Positions 46,091 to 52,139 of a stretch of 64,000 nucleotides of DNA are shown one piece after another; position 1 is the stretch's first letter, and every line of letters begins with the position of its first letter. Under the pieces are notes generated by a model. The model was given only the letters and a program-made list of their open reading frames with translations. It had not been told where the DNA came from and did not search any database. The translations under genes were made by a program, and so were the position numbers. This stretch comes from Formosa sp. L2A11 (GTDB lineage Bacteria; Bacteroidota; Bacteroidia; Flavobacteriales; Flavobacteriaceae): contig NZ_CP047028.1 of NCBI RefSeq assembly GCF_009796865.1, positions 3,224,001 through 3,288,000 on the forward strand. The letters run 5' to 3'.

Positions 46091-48499
46091 ATGAGTACAC
46101 GTAGAATAAAAAAAGTAGCTGTTATAGGTTCTGGTATTATGGGAAGTGGTATTGCATGTCATTTCGCCAATATTGGTGTAGACGTACTATTACTAGATAT
46201 TGTACCACGCGAACTTAATCCCGCAGAACAAGCAAAGGGACTAACTTTACAAGATAAAGTAGTTAGAAACCGAATGGTAAACGATTCGCTTAAAGCAGCT
46301 TTAAAATCAAAGCCCTCTCCTATTTATCATCAAAAATTTGCCAGTCGTATTCAGACAGGTAATCTAGACGATGATATTGCAAAGGTAAAAGATGTAGATT
46401 GGATTATTGAAGTGGTTGTAGAACGTTTAGATATTAAGAAACTTGTTTTCGAAAATCTAGAAAAACACAGAACTCCAGGAACTTTAATTACATCAAATAC
46501 TTCTGGTATTCCTATTCATTTTATGAGTGAAGGGCGTTCAGAAGATTTTCAAAAACACTTTTGCGGTACCCACTTTTTTAACCCAGCTCGTTACTTAAAA
46601 TTATTCGAAATTATTCCTGGACCTCAAACGTCTCCAGAAGTTTTAGAGTTTTTAAATGGATATGGTGAACAGTTTTTAGGCAAAACATCTGTGATGGCTA
46701 AAGATACACCTGCTTTTATAGGAAACCGTGTTGGAATTTTTAGTATTATGAGTTTATTCCACGCTGTAAAAGACATGGATTTAACCATAGAAGAAGTCGA
46801 TAAATTAACAGGTCCTGTTATTGGTCGTCCAAAATCGGCAACCTTCCGTACCGTAGATGTTGTAGGTTTAGATACTTTGGTACATGTTGCCAACGGAATT
46901 TATGATAATGTTCCTACAGACGAACGTCACGATTTATTTAAGCTACCTGATTTCATTACTACCATGATGGAAAATAAATGGTTAGGAAGCAAAACAAAAC
47001 AAGGATTCTATAAATTAGAACGCCATAAAGACGGTACTAAAGATATTTTATCATTAGATCTAGATACTTTAGAATATCGTGCAAACAAAAAAGCAAAATT
47101 TGCAACTTTAGAATTAACGAAATCGATTGATAAAGTCGTAGACCGTTTTAAAGTCTTAGTTGCAGGAAAAGATAAAGCGGGAGAATTTTACCGTAAAAAC
47201 TTTGCCGCACTATTTGCTTATGTAGCAAATAGAATTCCAGAAATATCAAACGAATTATATAAAATTGACGATGCCATGAAAGCGGGTTTTGGATGGGAAC
47301 ACGGCCCTTTTCAAATTTGGGATGCTATTGGTGTTGAAAAAGGAATAAAAATCATGGAAGCCGAAGGTTTAAAACCTGCTGCTTGGGTTAGCGACATGTT
47401 AGCTTCTGGAGTAACGTCTTTCTATGCAATAAAAGAAGGAGCTTCTTACTTTTACGATATTCCGTCTAAAAAACAAGAAAAAATACCTGGACAAGATGCC
47501 TTCATTATTCTAAATAATATTAGAAAATCTAAAGAAGTATTTAAAAATTCTGGTGTTGTTATTGAAGATTTAGGAGATGGAATCCTGAATTGCGAATTCC
47601 AATCTAAAATGAATACTATTGGTGGCGATGTTTTAGCTGGACTTAATAAAGCGATAGATTTAGCCGAAAAAGATTTCCAAGGTTTAGTTGTAGGAAATCA
47701 AGGTGCAAACTTCTCTGTTGGAGCAAACATTGGAATGATTTTTATGATGGCTGCCGAACAGGAATACGACGAATTAAACATGGCCATTAAGTATTTTCAA
47801 GACACTGTAATGCGTATGCGTTATTCATCTATCCCTACAGTTTCTGCTCCTCATGGGATGACCTTTGGTGGAGGTTGCGAATTATCACTTCACGCAGATA
47901 AAGTAGTTGCTGCCGCAGAAACCTATATGGGACTTGTAGAATTTGGAGTTGGCGTAATCCCTGGTGGTGGTGGTTCTAAAGAACTTACATTAAGAGCACA
48001 AGACACCTTTAAAAAAGGCGATGTAGAACTTAATACACTTCAAGAGTACTTCTTAACTATTGGAATGGCAAAAGTATCAACCTCAGCGTACGAAGGTTTT
48101 GATTTAGGGTTACTTCAAGAAGGTAAAGATATTGTCGTAGTCAATAAAGACAGACAAATCGCTACAGCAAAAGCACATGCGAAACTAATGGCTGAAGCAG
48201 GTTATACACAACCTATAAAACGTACAGATATTAAAGTGCTAGGAAAACAAGCTTTAGGGATGTTCTTAGTAGGAACAGATGCTATGGAAGCTAGCCGATA
48301 TATTAGTGCACACGATCAGAAAATTGCAAACAAATTGGCTTACGTTATGGCTGGAGGTGATTTATCTGAACCCACTTTAGTTAACGAACAATACTTATTA
48401 GATTTAGAACGCGAAGCCTTTTTAAGTCTATGTACAGAACGTAAAACATTAGAGCGTATTCAGCATATGTTGAAAACAGGAAAACCGTTAAGAAACTAG
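46091..48499 (+). CDS. 3-hydroxyacyl-CoA dehydrogenase/enoyl-CoA hydratase fusion
   Basis: An 802-residue bifunctional beta-oxidation protein with the dehydrogenase first and the hydratase second (FadN-like order, opposite to E. coli FadB). VAVIGSGIMGSGIACHFANI is the NAD fold; SNTSGIPI, HFFNPARYLKLFEIIP and KDTPAFIGNRVGIF follow. The hydratase half carries GANFSVGANIGMI and HGMTFGGGCELSLHADKVVA with its oxyanion loop. It converts enoyl-CoA to 3-ketoacyl-CoA. The start ATG abuts the marR stop, and the thiolase follows after a spacer with a purine-rich repeat. Confidence 0.93.
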   Translation: MSTRRIKKVAVIGSGIMGSGIACHFANIGVDVLLLDIVPRELNPAEQAKGLTLQDKVVRNRMVNDSLKAALKSKPSPIYHQKFASRIQTGNLDDDIAKVKDVDWIIEVVVERLDIKKLVFENLEKHRTPGTLITSNTSGIPIHFMSEGRSEDFQKHFCGTHFFNPARYLKLFEIIPGPQTSPEVLEFLNGYGEQFLGKTSVMAKDTPAFIGNRVGIFSIMSLFHAVKDMDLTIEEVDKLTGPVIGRPKSATFRTVDVVGLDTLVHVANGIYDNVPTDERHDLFKLPDFITTMMENKWLGSKTKQGFYKLERHKDGTKDILSLDLDTLEYRANKKAKFATLELTKSIDKVVDRFKVLVAGKDKAGEFYRKNFAALFAYVANRIPEISNELYKIDDAMKAGFGWEHGPFQIWDAIGVEKGIKIMEAEGLKPAAWVSDMLASGVTSFYAIKEGASYFYDIPSKKQEKIPGQDAFIILNNIRKSKEVFKNSGVVIEDLGDGILNCEFQSKMNTIGGDVLAGLNKAIDLAEKDFQGLVVGNQGANFSVGANIGMIFMMAAEQEYDELNMAIKYFQDTVMRMRYSSIPTVSAPHGMTFGGGCELSLHADKVVAAAETYMGLVEFGVGVIPGGGGSKELTLRAQDTFKKGDVELNTLQEYFLTIGMAKVSTSAYEGFDLGLLQEGKDIVVVNKDRQIATAKAHAKLMAEAGYTQPIKRTDIKVLGKQALGMFLVGTDAMEASRYISAHDQKIANKLAYVMAGGDLSEPTLVNEQYLLDLEREAFLSLCTERKTLERIQHMLKTGKPLRN

Positions 48500-48600
48500 A
48501 AAAAAGAGAAAAGAGAAAAGAAACTAAGAGGTCATTTTAAATAAGGTAGATTTTAAAATCTTTATTCTCTGCTCTATATTCTCTTATCTCATTTTCAAAA
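48498..48600. repeat. Purine-rich inverted repeat, solo copy
   Basis: The spacer begins with a run of AGAGAAAAG units and ends with the pyrimidine counterpart (CTTTATTCTCTGCTCTATAT, TTCTCTTATCTC). Its wording matches the repeats that flank the four-helix-bundle gene at 49806-50250, but no gene lies between the arms here. Confidence 0.55.
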
Positions 48601-48613
48601 CACACATTAAACT

Positions 48614-49804
48614 ATGAAAACCGCATATATAGTAAAAGCATACAGAACCGCTGTTGGTAAAGCACCTAAAGGCGTGTTCAGATTTAAAAGATCGGATGAG
48701 TTGGCTGCAGAAACCATCAAGTATATGATGAAGGAACTACCAAGTTTAGATCCAAAACGTATAGACGATGTTATTGTTGGTAACGCCATGCCAGAAGGCT
48801 CACAAGGTCTTAATATGGCACGTTTAATCTCGTTAATGGGATTAGATATAGTAGATGTTCCAGGTGTAACCGTAAATCGTTTTTGTTCTTCAGGAATAGA
48901 AACTATTGGTATGGCAACAGCTAAAATACAATCTGGAATGGCCGATTGTATTATCGCTGGTGGAGCAGAAAGCATGAGTGCTGTACCCATGACAGGATAT
49001 AAACCTGAATTGAACTACGATGTTGTAAAAGCAGGTCATGAAGATTACTATTGGGGTATGGGAAATACCGCTGAAGCTGTAGCAAATCAGTTTAAAGTCT
49101 CCCGCGAAGACCAAGATGAATTTGCTTACAATTCACATGTAAAAGCCTTAAAAGCACAGGCAGAAAACCGTTTTCAAGATCAGATTGTGCCTATAGATAT
49201 TAATGAAACGTATATAGATGCTAATGGAAAAAAAGCAACAAAAACATATACGATTACAAAAGATGAAGGTCCGCGTGCAGGTACAAGCATTGAAGCTTTA
49301 TCGAAACTAAGAGCTGTATTTGCTGCAGGAGGAAGTGTAACAGCAGGAAATTCGTCTCAGACTAGTGATGGTGCAGCTTTTGTAATGGTTATGAGTGAAG
49401 ACATGGTAAAAGAATTAGGACTTGAACCAATTGCACGATTAGTTAACTACGCTGCTGCAGGTGTTGAGCCTCGTATTATGGGAATTGGCCCTGTAAAAGC
49501 CATTCCAAAAGCATTAAAACAAGCCGGTTTAAAACAAAGTGATTTAGAACTTATAGAATTGAATGAAGCATTCGCATCTCAATCTATAGCTGTAATTCGA
49601 GAATTGGGATTAAACTCAGATATCGTAAACGTAAACGGAGGAGCGATAGCTTTAGGTCACCCACTAGGATGTACAGGAGCAAAACTATCCGTGCAACTCT
49701 TTGACGAAATGCGTAAGCGTGATATGAAAGGTAAATACGGAGCTGTAACCATGTGCGTAGGTACTGGACAAGGTGCTTGTGGAGTATTTGAGTTTCTGAA
49801 TTAG
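48614..49804 (+). CDS. fadA: Acetyl-CoA C-acyltransferase (3-ketoacyl-CoA thiolase)
   Basis: A 396-residue thiolase for the last step of beta-oxidation, releasing acetyl-CoA. The nucleophile is Cys in VTVNRFCSSGIETIGMA, the acid-base pair is His in NVNGGAIALGHPLGCTGAK and Cys in TMCVGTGQGACGVFE; GGAESMSAVPM is the family loop. It forms the usual complex with the HCDH/ECH protein encoded upstream. Sequence and length are standard for FadA. Confidence 0.95.
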   Translation: MKTAYIVKAYRTAVGKAPKGVFRFKRSDELAAETIKYMMKELPSLDPKRIDDVIVGNAMPEGSQGLNMARLISLMGLDIVDVPGVTVNRFCSSGIETIGMATAKIQSGMADCIIAGGAESMSAVPMTGYKPELNYDVVKAGHEDYYWGMGNTAEAVANQFKVSREDQDEFAYNSHVKALKAQAENRFQDQIVPIDINETYIDANGKKATKTYTITKDEGPRAGTSIEALSKLRAVFAAGGSVTAGNSSQTSDGAAFVMVMSEDMVKELGLEPIARLVNYAAAGVEPRIMGIGPVKAIPKALKQAGLKQSDLELIELNEAFASQSIAVIRELGLNSDIVNVNGGAIALGHPLGCTGAKLSVQLFDEMRKRDMKGKYGAVTMCVGTGQGACGVFEFLN

Positions 49805-49805
49805 A

Positions 49806-49852
49806 GATTAGGAAAATAGAGCAAAGAACAGAGAAAATAGACCCGATAGATG
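49806..49852. repeat. Left arm of inverted repeat around the four-helix-bundle gene
   Basis: Purine-rich sequence containing ATAGAGCAAAGAACAGAGAA and then AATAGAC. Its reverse complement (GTCTATTTTCTCTGTTC...) aligns with the right arm at 50208-50243 (GTCTATATTCTTTATTC...), matching at most positions over about 34 bases. Confidence 0.6.
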
Positions 49853-50209
49853 AGTACACGTCATAATTATAAGAATTTAAAAATCTGGAAACTAGGATTG
49901 GAAATTGCTAATAATATTTCTGACGTATTGTTAAGTTTTCCAAAGCATGAAAGATATGATTTAAGCTCTCAACTAAGCAGATGTTCAATTTCATTGCCTA
50001 GTAATATAGCTGAAGGCTCATCTAGAACAAATAAATCTTTCAGTCATTTTTTAAACATTTCTTTAGGCTCATCATTTGAATTGGGAACTCAACTTTTAAT
50101 AGCACATCACAGACAATATATAAACCAAGAGACATTAACACAATTAGAAAATAAATTAGAAGAATTTCAGAGAATGACTATGAGTTTTCAAAACAACTTA
50201 AATCAATAA
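49850..50209 (+). CDS. Four-helix-bundle protein (23S rRNA intervening sequence family)
   Basis: A 119-residue all-helical protein. It starts MSTRHNYKNLKIWKLGLEIA and carries the family signature YDLSSQLSRCSISLPSNIAE followed by GSSRTNKSFSHFLNISLGSS and FELGTQLLIA. The family was first seen as ORFs in intervening sequences of 23S rRNA and is related to the Avd accessory proteins of diversity-generating retroelements. Its function is unknown. Here it sits between fadA and the acyl-CoA dehydrogenase, framed by inverted purine-rich repeats, and is not needed for beta-oxidation. It looks like a mobile cassette inserted in the operon. Confidence 0.88.
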   Translation: MSTRHNYKNLKIWKLGLEIANNISDVLLSFPKHERYDLSSQLSRCSISLPSNIAEGSSRTNKSFSHFLNISLGSSFELGTQLLIAHHRQYINQETLTQLENKLEEFQRMTMSFQNNLNQ

Positions 50210-50245
50210 GTCTATATTCTTTATTCTATTATCTATTTTCTCTAA
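50208..50245. repeat. Right arm of inverted repeat around the four-helix-bundle gene
   Basis: Pyrimidine-rich sequence (GTCTATATTCTTTATTCTAT, TATCTATTTTCTCT) complementary to the left arm at 49806-49852 and similar to the solo copy at 48498-48600. It begins at the stop codon of the four-helix-bundle gene. Confidence 0.6.
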
Positions 50246-50261
50246 AACAAACTACTAAAAC

Positions 50262-52070
50262 ATGGAAACTACACAAAAAGATATCATTAGAGGCGGGCAA
50301 TTTCTTATTAAAAAAACCCCGTGTGAAGACATATTTACTCCAGAAGATTTTTCTGAAGAGCAAATCATGATGAAAGAAGCCGTTATGGAATTTAACGAGC
50401 GTGAAATCATTCCTCATAAAGCAAAATTCGAAGCTAAAGACTATGCACTTACTGAAGAGGTCATGCGTAAAGCAGCTGAACTTGGATTCCTTGGTGTTTC
50501 GGTTCCTGAAGCTTATGGCGGACTCGGAATGGGATTCGTTTCGACTATGTTAACGTGTGATTATATTTCTAGCGGAACAGGATCTTTTAGTACCGCCTTT
50601 GGTGCGCATACTGGAATTGGAACTATGCCAATTACTCTTTATGGTACTGAAGAACAGAAACAAAAATATGTTTCTAAACTAGCTACAGGAGAATGGTTCG
50701 GAGCTTATGCTTTAACAGAACCTGGAGCTGGTAGTGATGCTAATTCAGGTAAAACAACTGCTAAAGTTTCTGAAGACGGAAAATCATATGTCATTAACGG
50801 ACAAAAAATGTGGATTTCAAATGCAGGTTTTTGTAGTTTAATGATTGTGTTTGCACGTATTGAAGATGATAAAAATATTACAGGTTTCATTGTAGAATAT
50901 GATAAAGACAATGCAAATGGTATTACTTTAGGTGAAGAAGAACACAAATTAGGAATTCGTGCATCGTCTACTCGACAAGTCTTTTTTAACGATACTGTTG
51001 TCCCTACAGAAAACATGTTAGCTGGTCGTGGTGAAGGTTTTAAAATTGCGATGAATGCCTTAAATATTGGTCGTATTAAGCTTGCTGCTGCCTGTTTAGA
51101 TTCGCAACGACGTATTACAACAACTGCGGTTCAGTATGCAAACGAACGTAAACAATTTAAAACACCAATTGCAGATTTTGGTGCTATAAAAGTTAAACTA
51201 GCAGAAATGGCTACAAACGCATATGTTGGAGAATCTGCTTCATATAGAGCTGCAAAAAATATTGAAGATCGCATTGCTATGCGACAAGCTGCAGGAAACA
51301 CACATCAAGAAGCTGAATTAAAAGGTGTTGAAGAATATGCTATTGAATGTTCTATCTTGAAAGTAGCTGTATCTGAAGATGTACAACATTGTGCAGATGA
51401 AGGAATTCAAATTTTTGGTGGTATGGGATTCTCTGAAGACACGCCTATGGAAGCTGCTTGGAGAGATGCTCGTATTGCTAGAATTTACGAAGGTACAAAC
51501 GAAATTAACCGTATGCTTTGCGTAGGGATGTTAGTGAAGAAAGCCATGAAAGGCCATGTAGACTTATTAGGTCCTGCAATGAAAGTTCAAGAAGATTTAA
51601 TGGGCATTCCTTCTTTCGAAACTCCAGATTTCTCTGAATTATTTTCAGAAGAAAAATCAATGATTGCTAAACTTAAAAAAGTATTTTTAATGGTTGCTGG
51701 TGCTGCTGTTCAGAAATTTGGACCTGCTTTAGAAGAGCATCAACAATTATTAATGGCGGCTTCAGATATATTAATTGAAATTTATATGGCAGAATCTGCT
51801 ATATTAAGAACAGAAAAGAATGCCAAACGTTTTGGTGAAGAATCGCAGAAAGTACAAATCGCCATGTCTAAATTATATTTATATCAGGCTGTAGATATTG
51901 TTGAGAAAAATGGAAAAGAAAGTATTATTTCTTTTGCTGAAGGAGACGAACAACGTATGATGCTAATGGGACTTAAACGTTTTACAAAATATGTAAACTA
52001 TCCAGATATTGTAGACTTAAGAAATGAAATCGCAGAAAAAGTAAAATCTGAAAACAAGTATTGTTTCTAA
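50262..52070 (+). CDS. Acyl-CoA dehydrogenase, long form
   Basis: A 602-residue flavoenzyme for the first oxidation of beta-oxidation. YALTEPGAGSDANSGKTTAK binds FAD and substrate; KMWISNAGFCSLMIVFARI, LGIRASSTRQVFFNDTVVP and AVQYANERKQFKTPIADFGA follow in order; the catalytic Glu is expected in ARIYEGTNEINRML. The C-terminal 180 residues form the extra helical domain of the VLCAD-like branch. It completes the fad operon and is followed by a strong terminator. Electrons should go to ETF, not encoded here. Confidence 0.93.
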   Translation: METTQKDIIRGGQFLIKKTPCEDIFTPEDFSEEQIMMKEAVMEFNEREIIPHKAKFEAKDYALTEEVMRKAAELGFLGVSVPEAYGGLGMGFVSTMLTCDYISSGTGSFSTAFGAHTGIGTMPITLYGTEEQKQKYVSKLATGEWFGAYALTEPGAGSDANSGKTTAKVSEDGKSYVINGQKMWISNAGFCSLMIVFARIEDDKNITGFIVEYDKDNANGITLGEEEHKLGIRASSTRQVFFNDTVVPTENMLAGRGEGFKIAMNALNIGRIKLAAACLDSQRRITTTAVQYANERKQFKTPIADFGAIKVKLAEMATNAYVGESASYRAAKNIEDRIAMRQAAGNTHQEAELKGVEEYAIECSILKVAVSEDVQHCADEGIQIFGGMGFSEDTPMEAAWRDARIARIYEGTNEINRMLCVGMLVKKAMKGHVDLLGPAMKVQEDLMGIPSFETPDFSELFSEEKSMIAKLKKVFLMVAGAAVQKFGPALEEHQQLLMAASDILIEIYMAESAILRTEKNAKRFGEESQKVQIAMSKLYLYQAVDIVEKNGKESIISFAEGDEQRMMLMGLKRFTKYVNYPDIVDLRNEIAEKVKSENKYCF

Positions 52071-52102: not shown

Positions 52103-52139
52103 AAAAAAGGCCAATTCTAAGTTTAGAATTGGCCTTTTA
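52103..52139. terminator. Bidirectional terminator between acyl-CoA dehydrogenase and GH15 genes
   Basis: A 16-bp stem AAAAAGGCCAATTCTA with TAGAATTGGCCTTTT around a four-base loop. T tracts on both strands serve the two convergent genes. Confidence 0.88.

Follow-up and report, generated by a model that had tools for sequence, protein, structure and literature searches.

The window analysed here, a stretch of 64,000 nt from Formosa sp. L2A11, contains a fad operon in which a MarR regulator gene lies upstream of the genes for FadB/FadJ-like, thiolase and FadE-like proteins (Table 1). By eye, a hairpin followed by T's is seen at 52107-52138, 3' of the acyl-CoA dehydrogenase (ACAD) gene, and is probably the terminator of this operon. 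Between the thiolase and ACAD genes (junction B) lies a gene for a four-helix-bundle protein, as the initial annotation had proposed. We refer to this protein and its relatives as IVPs. It matches PF05635 (E 4.9e-31; 107.5 bits against a curated cut-off of 33.8) and the "four helix bundle protein" model TIGR02436 (E 2.2e-28; 98.7 bits against a cut-off of 24), is the only PF05635 match in its genome, has a pI of 8.9, and found no match at E 1e-5 among 50,697 phage records. A Pfam scan of the protein returned PF05635 and a weak match to bAvd and nothing else, with no match to a Y1 (HUH) transposase; the element thus encodes no transposase, as had been supposed. The scores for Avd (21.7 bits against a cut-off of 80) and bAvd (27.2 against 40) both fall below the cut-offs.

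Table 1. Positions of the IVP gene, the four arms and the host genes in the window
Feature	Position	Strand	Evidence
IVP gene, PF05635 / TIGR02436 four-helix-bundle protein, 119 aa	49850..50209	+	profile match, predicted structure
Left arm, junction B, NNNNAGA heptamers, aligned core 49812-49842	49807..49845	+	lag 7 identity 0.53
Right arm, junction B, TCTNNNN heptamers, aligned core 50210-50240	50208..50246	+	lag 7 identity 0.66
Left arm, gene-free element, junction A	48498..48530	+	lag 7 identity 0.73
Right arm, gene-free element, junction A	48557..48596	+	lag 7 identity 0.58
Host gene, 3-hydroxyacyl-CoA dehydrogenase / enoyl-CoA hydratase (FadB/FadJ-like)	46091..48499	+	
Host gene, acetyl-CoA C-acyltransferase (thiolase), between junctions A and B	48614..49804	+	
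Host gene, acyl-CoA dehydrogenase (FadE-like), downstream of cassette	50262..52070	+	

The initial annotation had described flanks of the IVP gene that are reverse complements of each other over about 34 bp, and a version of the same repeat without a gene one gene upstream; both observations hold. The aligned arms at junction B are inverted, 31 nt long and 81% complementary, and 367 nt separate them; the match is perfect over a 12-nt core (49830-49841 / 50232-50243), and none of 5000 dinucleotide shuffles reached their local-alignment score of 19.3 (p 2e-4). At junction A, the inverted repeat that lacks a gene (48498-48605) scores 14.4 (p 0.003, dinucleotide shuffles), and its right arm resembles that of the gene-carrying element (p 0.006). 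Missed earlier was the repeat unit: each arm of both elements is an array of degenerate 7-mers, of the form NNNNAGA in left arms and TCTNNNN in right arms, with lag 7 the best of lags 4-11 in every case. Five TCTs at 7-nt spacing are found at only three places in the whole genome: two are the arms at junction A, and the third is the right arm at junction B. The hairpin at junction A is probably a gene-less derivative of the same cassette type.

Heptameric arms in the PF05635 family

PF05635 is present in 26 of the 39 genomes surveyed, that of the window included, with 0 to 16 matches per genome. From 112 matches, 90 loci were taken, about twenty weak or fragmentary places being omitted, and the 75 copies (the window's included) with an ORF of at least 100 aa, at least 60 bits and at least 200 nt of flank were kept as a first set. 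A second set, picked from wider genome contigs by similarity to eight IVPs, gave 73 usable loci of 80 (four with early stops and three at contig edges were dropped); it may overlap the genomes of the first, and by record title it is mostly from Bacteroidota, with Geobacter, Akkermansia, Fibrobacter, Clostridia and others. Because five of the eight query IVPs came from fad junctions, the fad share of the second set is inflated. Eight of 18 matching plasmid records, all cyanobacterial, form a plasmid set.

Comparison of the upstream flank with the reverse complement of the downstream flank gave mean scores of 18.1 within copies and 9.8 for mismatched copies in the first set, 17.9 against 9.65 in the second, and 18.2 against 9.8 for the plasmids. 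A score of at least 14 was reached by 57 of 75 first-set copies versus 5.1% of mismatched pairs, and by 58 of 73 second-set copies versus 7.7%, leaving 18 and 15 copies, respectively, below the arm threshold used; five of the eight plasmid copies exceed the 95th percentile of mismatched pairs. Ordinary genes score at least 14 in 16 of 785 cases (2.0%). Flank identity at lag 7 is 0.395/0.405 in the first set, with further peaks at 14 and 21, whereas it is about 0.25 at a distance of 500 nt and 0.30-0.32 next to other genes. The corresponding values are 0.420/0.397 versus 0.257 in the second set and 0.495 in the cyanobacterial plasmid copies, whose units, such as GGAACAG and AGTAGGG, belong to the kind known as STRR. 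Exceptions are L350 and L053, with arrays in direct rather than inverted order, L043, with a 6-nt period upstream (by eye), and L353 and L355 of the plasmid set, which have no convincing arms. What the PF05635 copies share is thus the heptamer architecture and, in most, complementarity within the copy, but not the letters. A purine-rich end as one sequence common to the family, as first envisaged, was rejected because the letters of the arms differ from copy to copy.

The 7-nt spacing was set against other periods. Spaced at 8 nt, TCT arrays gave matches in 5 of 39 genomes, and spaced at 7 nt in 18 of 39; a reversed-pattern control was uninformative for TCT, which is identical read backwards. 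Among the 30 TCT-array loci listed, 26 had no inverted partner scoring at least 12, and two of the four that did were the window's own. A de novo period scan found seven 7-nt tracts in 400 kb of G012, four in 200 kb of G018, one in 200 kb of the window's own genome and two in the window, against none in 241 kb of two IVP-less genomes; every period other than 7 gave 0-2 tracts. One genome, G024, holds octamer arrays (TCTCACTC-like) with 27 matches; the 8-nt period was without a match in 34 of 39 genomes.

The arm type follows the protein lineage. Among pairs of copies that share no neighbours, arm similarity rises with IVP identity (permutation p 0.0005). Pairs below 30% identity have a mean arm similarity of 16.9, with 0.8% of 4343 pairs at 26 or more, whereas pairs above 70% have a mean of 30.3, with 9 of 14 pairs at 26 or more, four of these 14 involving L176, which lies at the MarR/fadJ junction of the fad operon while its relatives lie at fadJ/thiolase, and so differing in junction but not in region. 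Reversed sequences gave 0 of 14 in the top bin and 1.4% in the lowest. In a test fixed in advance, (ACTGNNN)x4 arrays were present in 5 of 5 genomes whose IVPs had been assigned by eye to the ACTG type versus 7 of 34 others (p 0.0014), and lay outside the IVP's own locus in all five carriers (6, 1, 305, 10 and 53 matches). G005, a non-carrier with array matches, holds the pattern once at the locus of its IVP L075. The same prediction failed for CTCA-type arrays, found in one of three expected genomes. With no cognate IVP recognised, G007 has 73 CTCA-type matches; long perfect CTCAACA arrays are seen in it.

Residence between operon genes, and empty sites

In 72 of 75 first-set and 66 of 71 second-set copies the IVP gene runs in the same direction as the ORFs on either side, against a background of 406 of 742 gene triples, and the median gaps to the neighbours in the co-directional cases are about 48-69 nt. 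Of the eight plasmid IVPs, four share the direction of both neighbours and three run antisense to both. Neighbours were identified by an NCBIfam scan for 15 of 148 copies, chosen partly for recurrence; some matches lie below the curated cut-off, and 3 of 30 neighbour proteins had no match at the limit used. The junctions found in this way are scoA/scoB (two copies), SdhA/SdhB, ErpA-like protein/SufB, AtpA/AtpG, CysD/CysN, NuoD/oxidoreductase, the two parts of MetH, HemL/HemE, PaaG/PaaH, QueA/RlmN and PanB/RluA. One plasmid IVP lies antisense between ribonucleotide reductase genes. On two other cyanobacterial plasmids an IVP is seen within a CRISPR operon, in the orders cas10/IVP/Cmr3-family gene (L357:1489-1845) and cas6/IVP/cas4 (L350:1495-1854), and a figure legend in a CRISPR-mining paper has "23S rRNA IVP" among its domain abbreviations (PMC10910872). 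IVP genes in such operons may be passengers.

The scoA/scoB junction holds unrelated IVP clades (AU p 7e-9), as does an ABC-transporter junction (AU p 2e-48), and for the five first-set fadJ/thiolase copies a single clade was not rejected (p 0.35), the groups in these tests having been named from neighbours after the IVP tree had been seen. On a quick, poorly resolved tree of 148 copies, the 26 that lie at fadJ/thiolase need a minimum of 15 changes and the 13 at thiolase/ACAD a minimum of 7.

The thiolase/ACAD IVPs of six genomes in five genera (G000, that of the window, G001, G010, G011, G012 and G018) form one clade (98/80), so that vertical inheritance, together with losses in other lineages, is the best reading of the window copy. 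The initial annotation had held that conserved synteny would speak against mobility; synteny is conserved in part, in 6 of 30 fad operons, and for this reason the window copy looks like an old resident rather than a recent hop. We conclude that it is probably an old, quiescent resident of the thiolase/ACAD junction. Despite this inheritance the arms of the lineage have changed in step: two relatives at the same junction have AAGATTC-like units on both sides (by eye).

A search for empty sites had been suggested earlier, and these were found in relatives at the fad, scoA/scoB and metH junctions. Of 39 genomes, 32 had a thiolase match, and the 30 loci examined all have the order fadJ-thiolase-ACAD. 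At fadJ/thiolase, 6 loci have an IVP, 14 a gap of at most 18 nt and 10 a longer spacer; at thiolase/ACAD, 6 have an IVP, 14 a gap of less than 45 nt and 10 other spacers. Seven of these 20 longer spacers are heptameric (lag 7 identity 0.38-0.59) with inverted arms that equal or exceed the best of 60 shuffles (L091, L097, L100, L101, L095, L096 and L119, of which L101 merely ties). Another three (L093, L099, L113) pass the shuffle test but have no strong period, and two (L092, L107) have the period and fail the shuffles. By eye, six of the seven heptameric spacers appear to have the unit of the IVP-bearing cassette at the other junction, L100 being the exception, and G002, which has no IVP match, retains arms and a scrap of an IVP gene. 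A different, G+C-richer inverted repeat is seen at the fadJ/thiolase junctions of L093 and L098, so this junction collects several kinds of repeat.

At scoA/scoB, 27 readable junctions hold an IVP in 9, at most 27 nt in 10 and other spacers in 8. In the window's own genome a 163-nt spacer at this junction (L297) ends in a TAATTATTACATT motif that resembles, by eye, the arms of relatives' IVPs at the same place; the spacer is probably a lost cassette. At metH, 29 loci hold an IVP in 4 (one truncated), 0 nt in 14 and other spacers in 10, and one is fused. Within a single genus, G003 and G004 carry the IVP and the site is empty in G000, G001 and G002. The sole empty/filled site that can be resolved, at metH, shows no visible target duplication, and about 40 nt of spacer are replaced.

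In 28 of 29 loci (L321-L349) methionine synthase itself comes in two parts, with the break behind the homocysteine methyltransferase domain; G033 alone has a fused open frame of 1271 aa. IVP insertion as the cause of the split was rejected, since the first domain is an open frame of its own in the same 28 loci. By eye, the N-terminus of the second part seems to come from the cassette's right arm in G003 and G004.

Nature of the cassette and its possible relatives

Several known systems bear comparison. Those of Leptospira are among the 23S rRNA IVSs with an S23/IVP ORF. In classical 23S IVSs a PF05635 ORF is flanked by complementary ends, and the IVS is cleaved by RNase III with no ligation to follow (PMC4990558, PMC11270868); IVP ORFs are also described in 16S and 23S inserts of CPR bacteria (PMC11270868). 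In the 23S IVS of Coxiella burnetii the S23p start is reported to be preceded by a tandem run of GACAGAT heptamers, whose number differs from strain to strain; the accessible part of that paper does not generalise the heptamers beyond its own IVS (PMC4990558). The window element resembles these IVSs in its PF05635 protein, its ORF between complementary ends, its sporadic distribution, and heptameric repeats before the ORF as reported for C. burnetii. It differs from them in lying between thiolase and ACAD genes rather than in rRNA, in arms that vary from copy to copy, and in the gene-free heptamer hairpin in the same operon.

RAYT/REPIN systems likewise consist of a single gene between inverted repeats, plus gene-free copies, the gene being that of a Y1 (HUH) transposase. 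The window cassette shares the arrangement of a single gene with inverted repeats and a gene-free version, but it has no such transposase, its units are 7 nt long, its protein belongs to another family and its arms are copy-specific. Insertion sequences and MITEs also differ from it, in that it has no fixed terminal inverted repeat and its arms differ between copies. The REP- or intron-like mobility in trans that the initial annotation had envisaged fares poorly, because the cassette has no REP/RAYT-like transposase and PF00078 (RVT_1) is absent from several IVP-rich genomes.

The predicted structure of the window IVP has four helices (pLDDT 96.2). Foldseek matches it to 2gsc (TM 0.91, E 7e-7) and 2rld (TM 0.80, E 7e-4), crystal entries with five chains each, and, with weak E, to DGR Avd (4dwl: TM 0.81, E 0.055; Avd matches overall: TM about 0.8, E 0.03-0.4). 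A published suggestion that Avd and PF05635 are homologous points the same way (PMC10053308). From the five-chain entries and the likeness to Avd, the IVP is probably pentameric and probably binds nucleic acid.

We favour the reading, at a probability of about 0.58, that the window feature is an IVS-type selfish cassette outside rRNA, an IVP gene within self-complementary 7-nt arrays. The mobile cassette proposed at the outset is supported in part, by inverted ends of its own, the gene-free relative, the empty sites and the arms that track lineage; the window copy does not look like a recent hop. Against the selfish-cassette reading stand the lack of a G.U excess in the arms and of a transposase, the missing target duplication at metH, the failed CTCA prediction, heptamer arrays with no cognate recognised, the copies below the arm threshold, and the plasmid copies, of which only half are co-directional. 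Such a cassette would move as a DNA unit together with its arms, which slippage and template switching at the DNA level would keep alike. The IVP would be a candidate specificity or annealing factor that binds its own heptamer arms, with cutting and copying left to host enzymes. The cassette would persist where splitting or lengthening the transcript is harmless, that is, between cistrons; for classical IVSs, the helices of 23S rRNA would be the niche in which transcript splitting is tolerated.

The arms may instead act in RNA, pairing within the polycistronic mRNA to form a stem that is cleaved by RNase III, as happens in 23S IVSs, in which case the IVP and its hairpins would be a domesticated part of the operon that uncouples or tunes the expression of the two neighbouring cistrons. 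We consider this unlikely. It would fit the co-directionality of nearly all first- and second-set copies, their frequent place between subunit genes, the presence of an IVP at the fad junction in six genomes, and the RNase III excision reported for the Coxiella IVS (PMC4990558). However, arm mismatches show no excess of G.U over A.C (51 versus 72 in 46 copies, 53 versus 61 in 52 copies), and at a laxer threshold the pooled counts show an excess of A.C (115 versus 156, p 0.015). Pairing in sense RNA is thus not visibly selected, and complementarity is better explained at the DNA level; selection on the arms as an RNA stem was rejected on this test. Folding is also unexceptional, both for the window cassette (z -1.65; 8 of 100 shuffles equally good) and for the gene-free hairpin (z -2.17; 6 of 200), three of the eight plasmid copies are antisense to both neighbours, and losses, stops and empty sites are frequent.

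It is more doubtful still that the IVP is an ordinary, vertically inherited operon gene, with heptamer tracts that are passive slippage expansions beside a dispensable gene. The single clade at junction B, the heptamer tracts found away from IVP genes, and the slippage at 7 nt already proposed by others (as quoted in PMC4679880 and PMC4692102) agree with such an origin. Slippage alone, however, does not make two flanks reverse complements within a copy, and ordinary genes seldom show flank complementarity. Empty sites within one genus, two junctions each held by unrelated IVP clades, and an arm type that tracks the protein at different junctions likewise argue against it.

A retro-mobile cassette, in which an Avd-like IVP and an RT in trans copy the cassette RNA into intercistronic sites, is very improbable: the fold match to Avd and the DGR ribonucleoprotein speaks for it, and sense-strand, intra-operon residence in two sets would fit an RNA intermediate, but the Avd and bAvd models stay below their cut-offs, antisense copies exist, and RVT_1, present in 13 of 39 genomes, is missing from IVP-rich G012 (16 IVP matches), G011 (11), G023 (8) and G007 (6) and from G024, G005 and G029 (5 each). 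It is present in IVP-rich G015 (8) and G018 (7). Since several IVP-rich genomes lack it, the two richest included, an RT in trans is not required everywhere today and was set aside as the general mover. The window differs from a DGR also in that none of the 10 RVT_1 matches of its own genome falls within the window range. Some of these 10 are fragmentary or broken, and five genus mates have 0 or 1; the surplus may reflect the recent spread of an RT element.

The selfish-cassette reading also touches on bacterial heptanucleotide repeats, a puzzle open since about 1990. Published accounts place such repeats (STRR, TAACTGA, GGGAATC) in cyanobacteria, Beggiatoaceae, Xanthomonas and some Bacteroidetes, and describe them, as we find for the window arms, as degenerate 7-nt units, mostly intergenic and in part paired as inverted repeats, with an erratic spread and an origin left unexplained (PMC4679880, PMC4692102). 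The IVP arrays differ from those descriptions in that they bracket IVP genes and their type tracks the IVP lineage. The terms "S23" and "four helix" are absent from the main texts of both papers, and among the literature matches listed, with subscription journals mostly outside, no general link between heptamer repeats and the PF05635 family was found. By our reading of the letters, tandem TAACTGA taken in another phase would be an ACTGNNN array, the type of one IVP clade. It is possible, if somewhat doubtful, that PF05635 cassettes with heptamer arms are transposase-free mobile elements spanning phyla, whose protein recognises its own arms, with IVSs as one niche and the heptanucleotide repeats of cyanobacteria, Beggiatoaceae, Xanthomonas and Bacteroidota as gene-less debris.

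If so, protein clade should be predictable from arm type, and binding to its own heptamers would be expected of purified IVP. IVP genes inside operons, those of CRISPR included, may be passengers rather than functional partners, and caution is needed when function is read from their neighbours. The functionless "four helix bundle protein / 23S rRNA IVP" family would gain a biology, 23S rRNA IVSs would be joined to the intercistronic cassettes, and bacterial heptanucleotide repeats would have a cognate gene.
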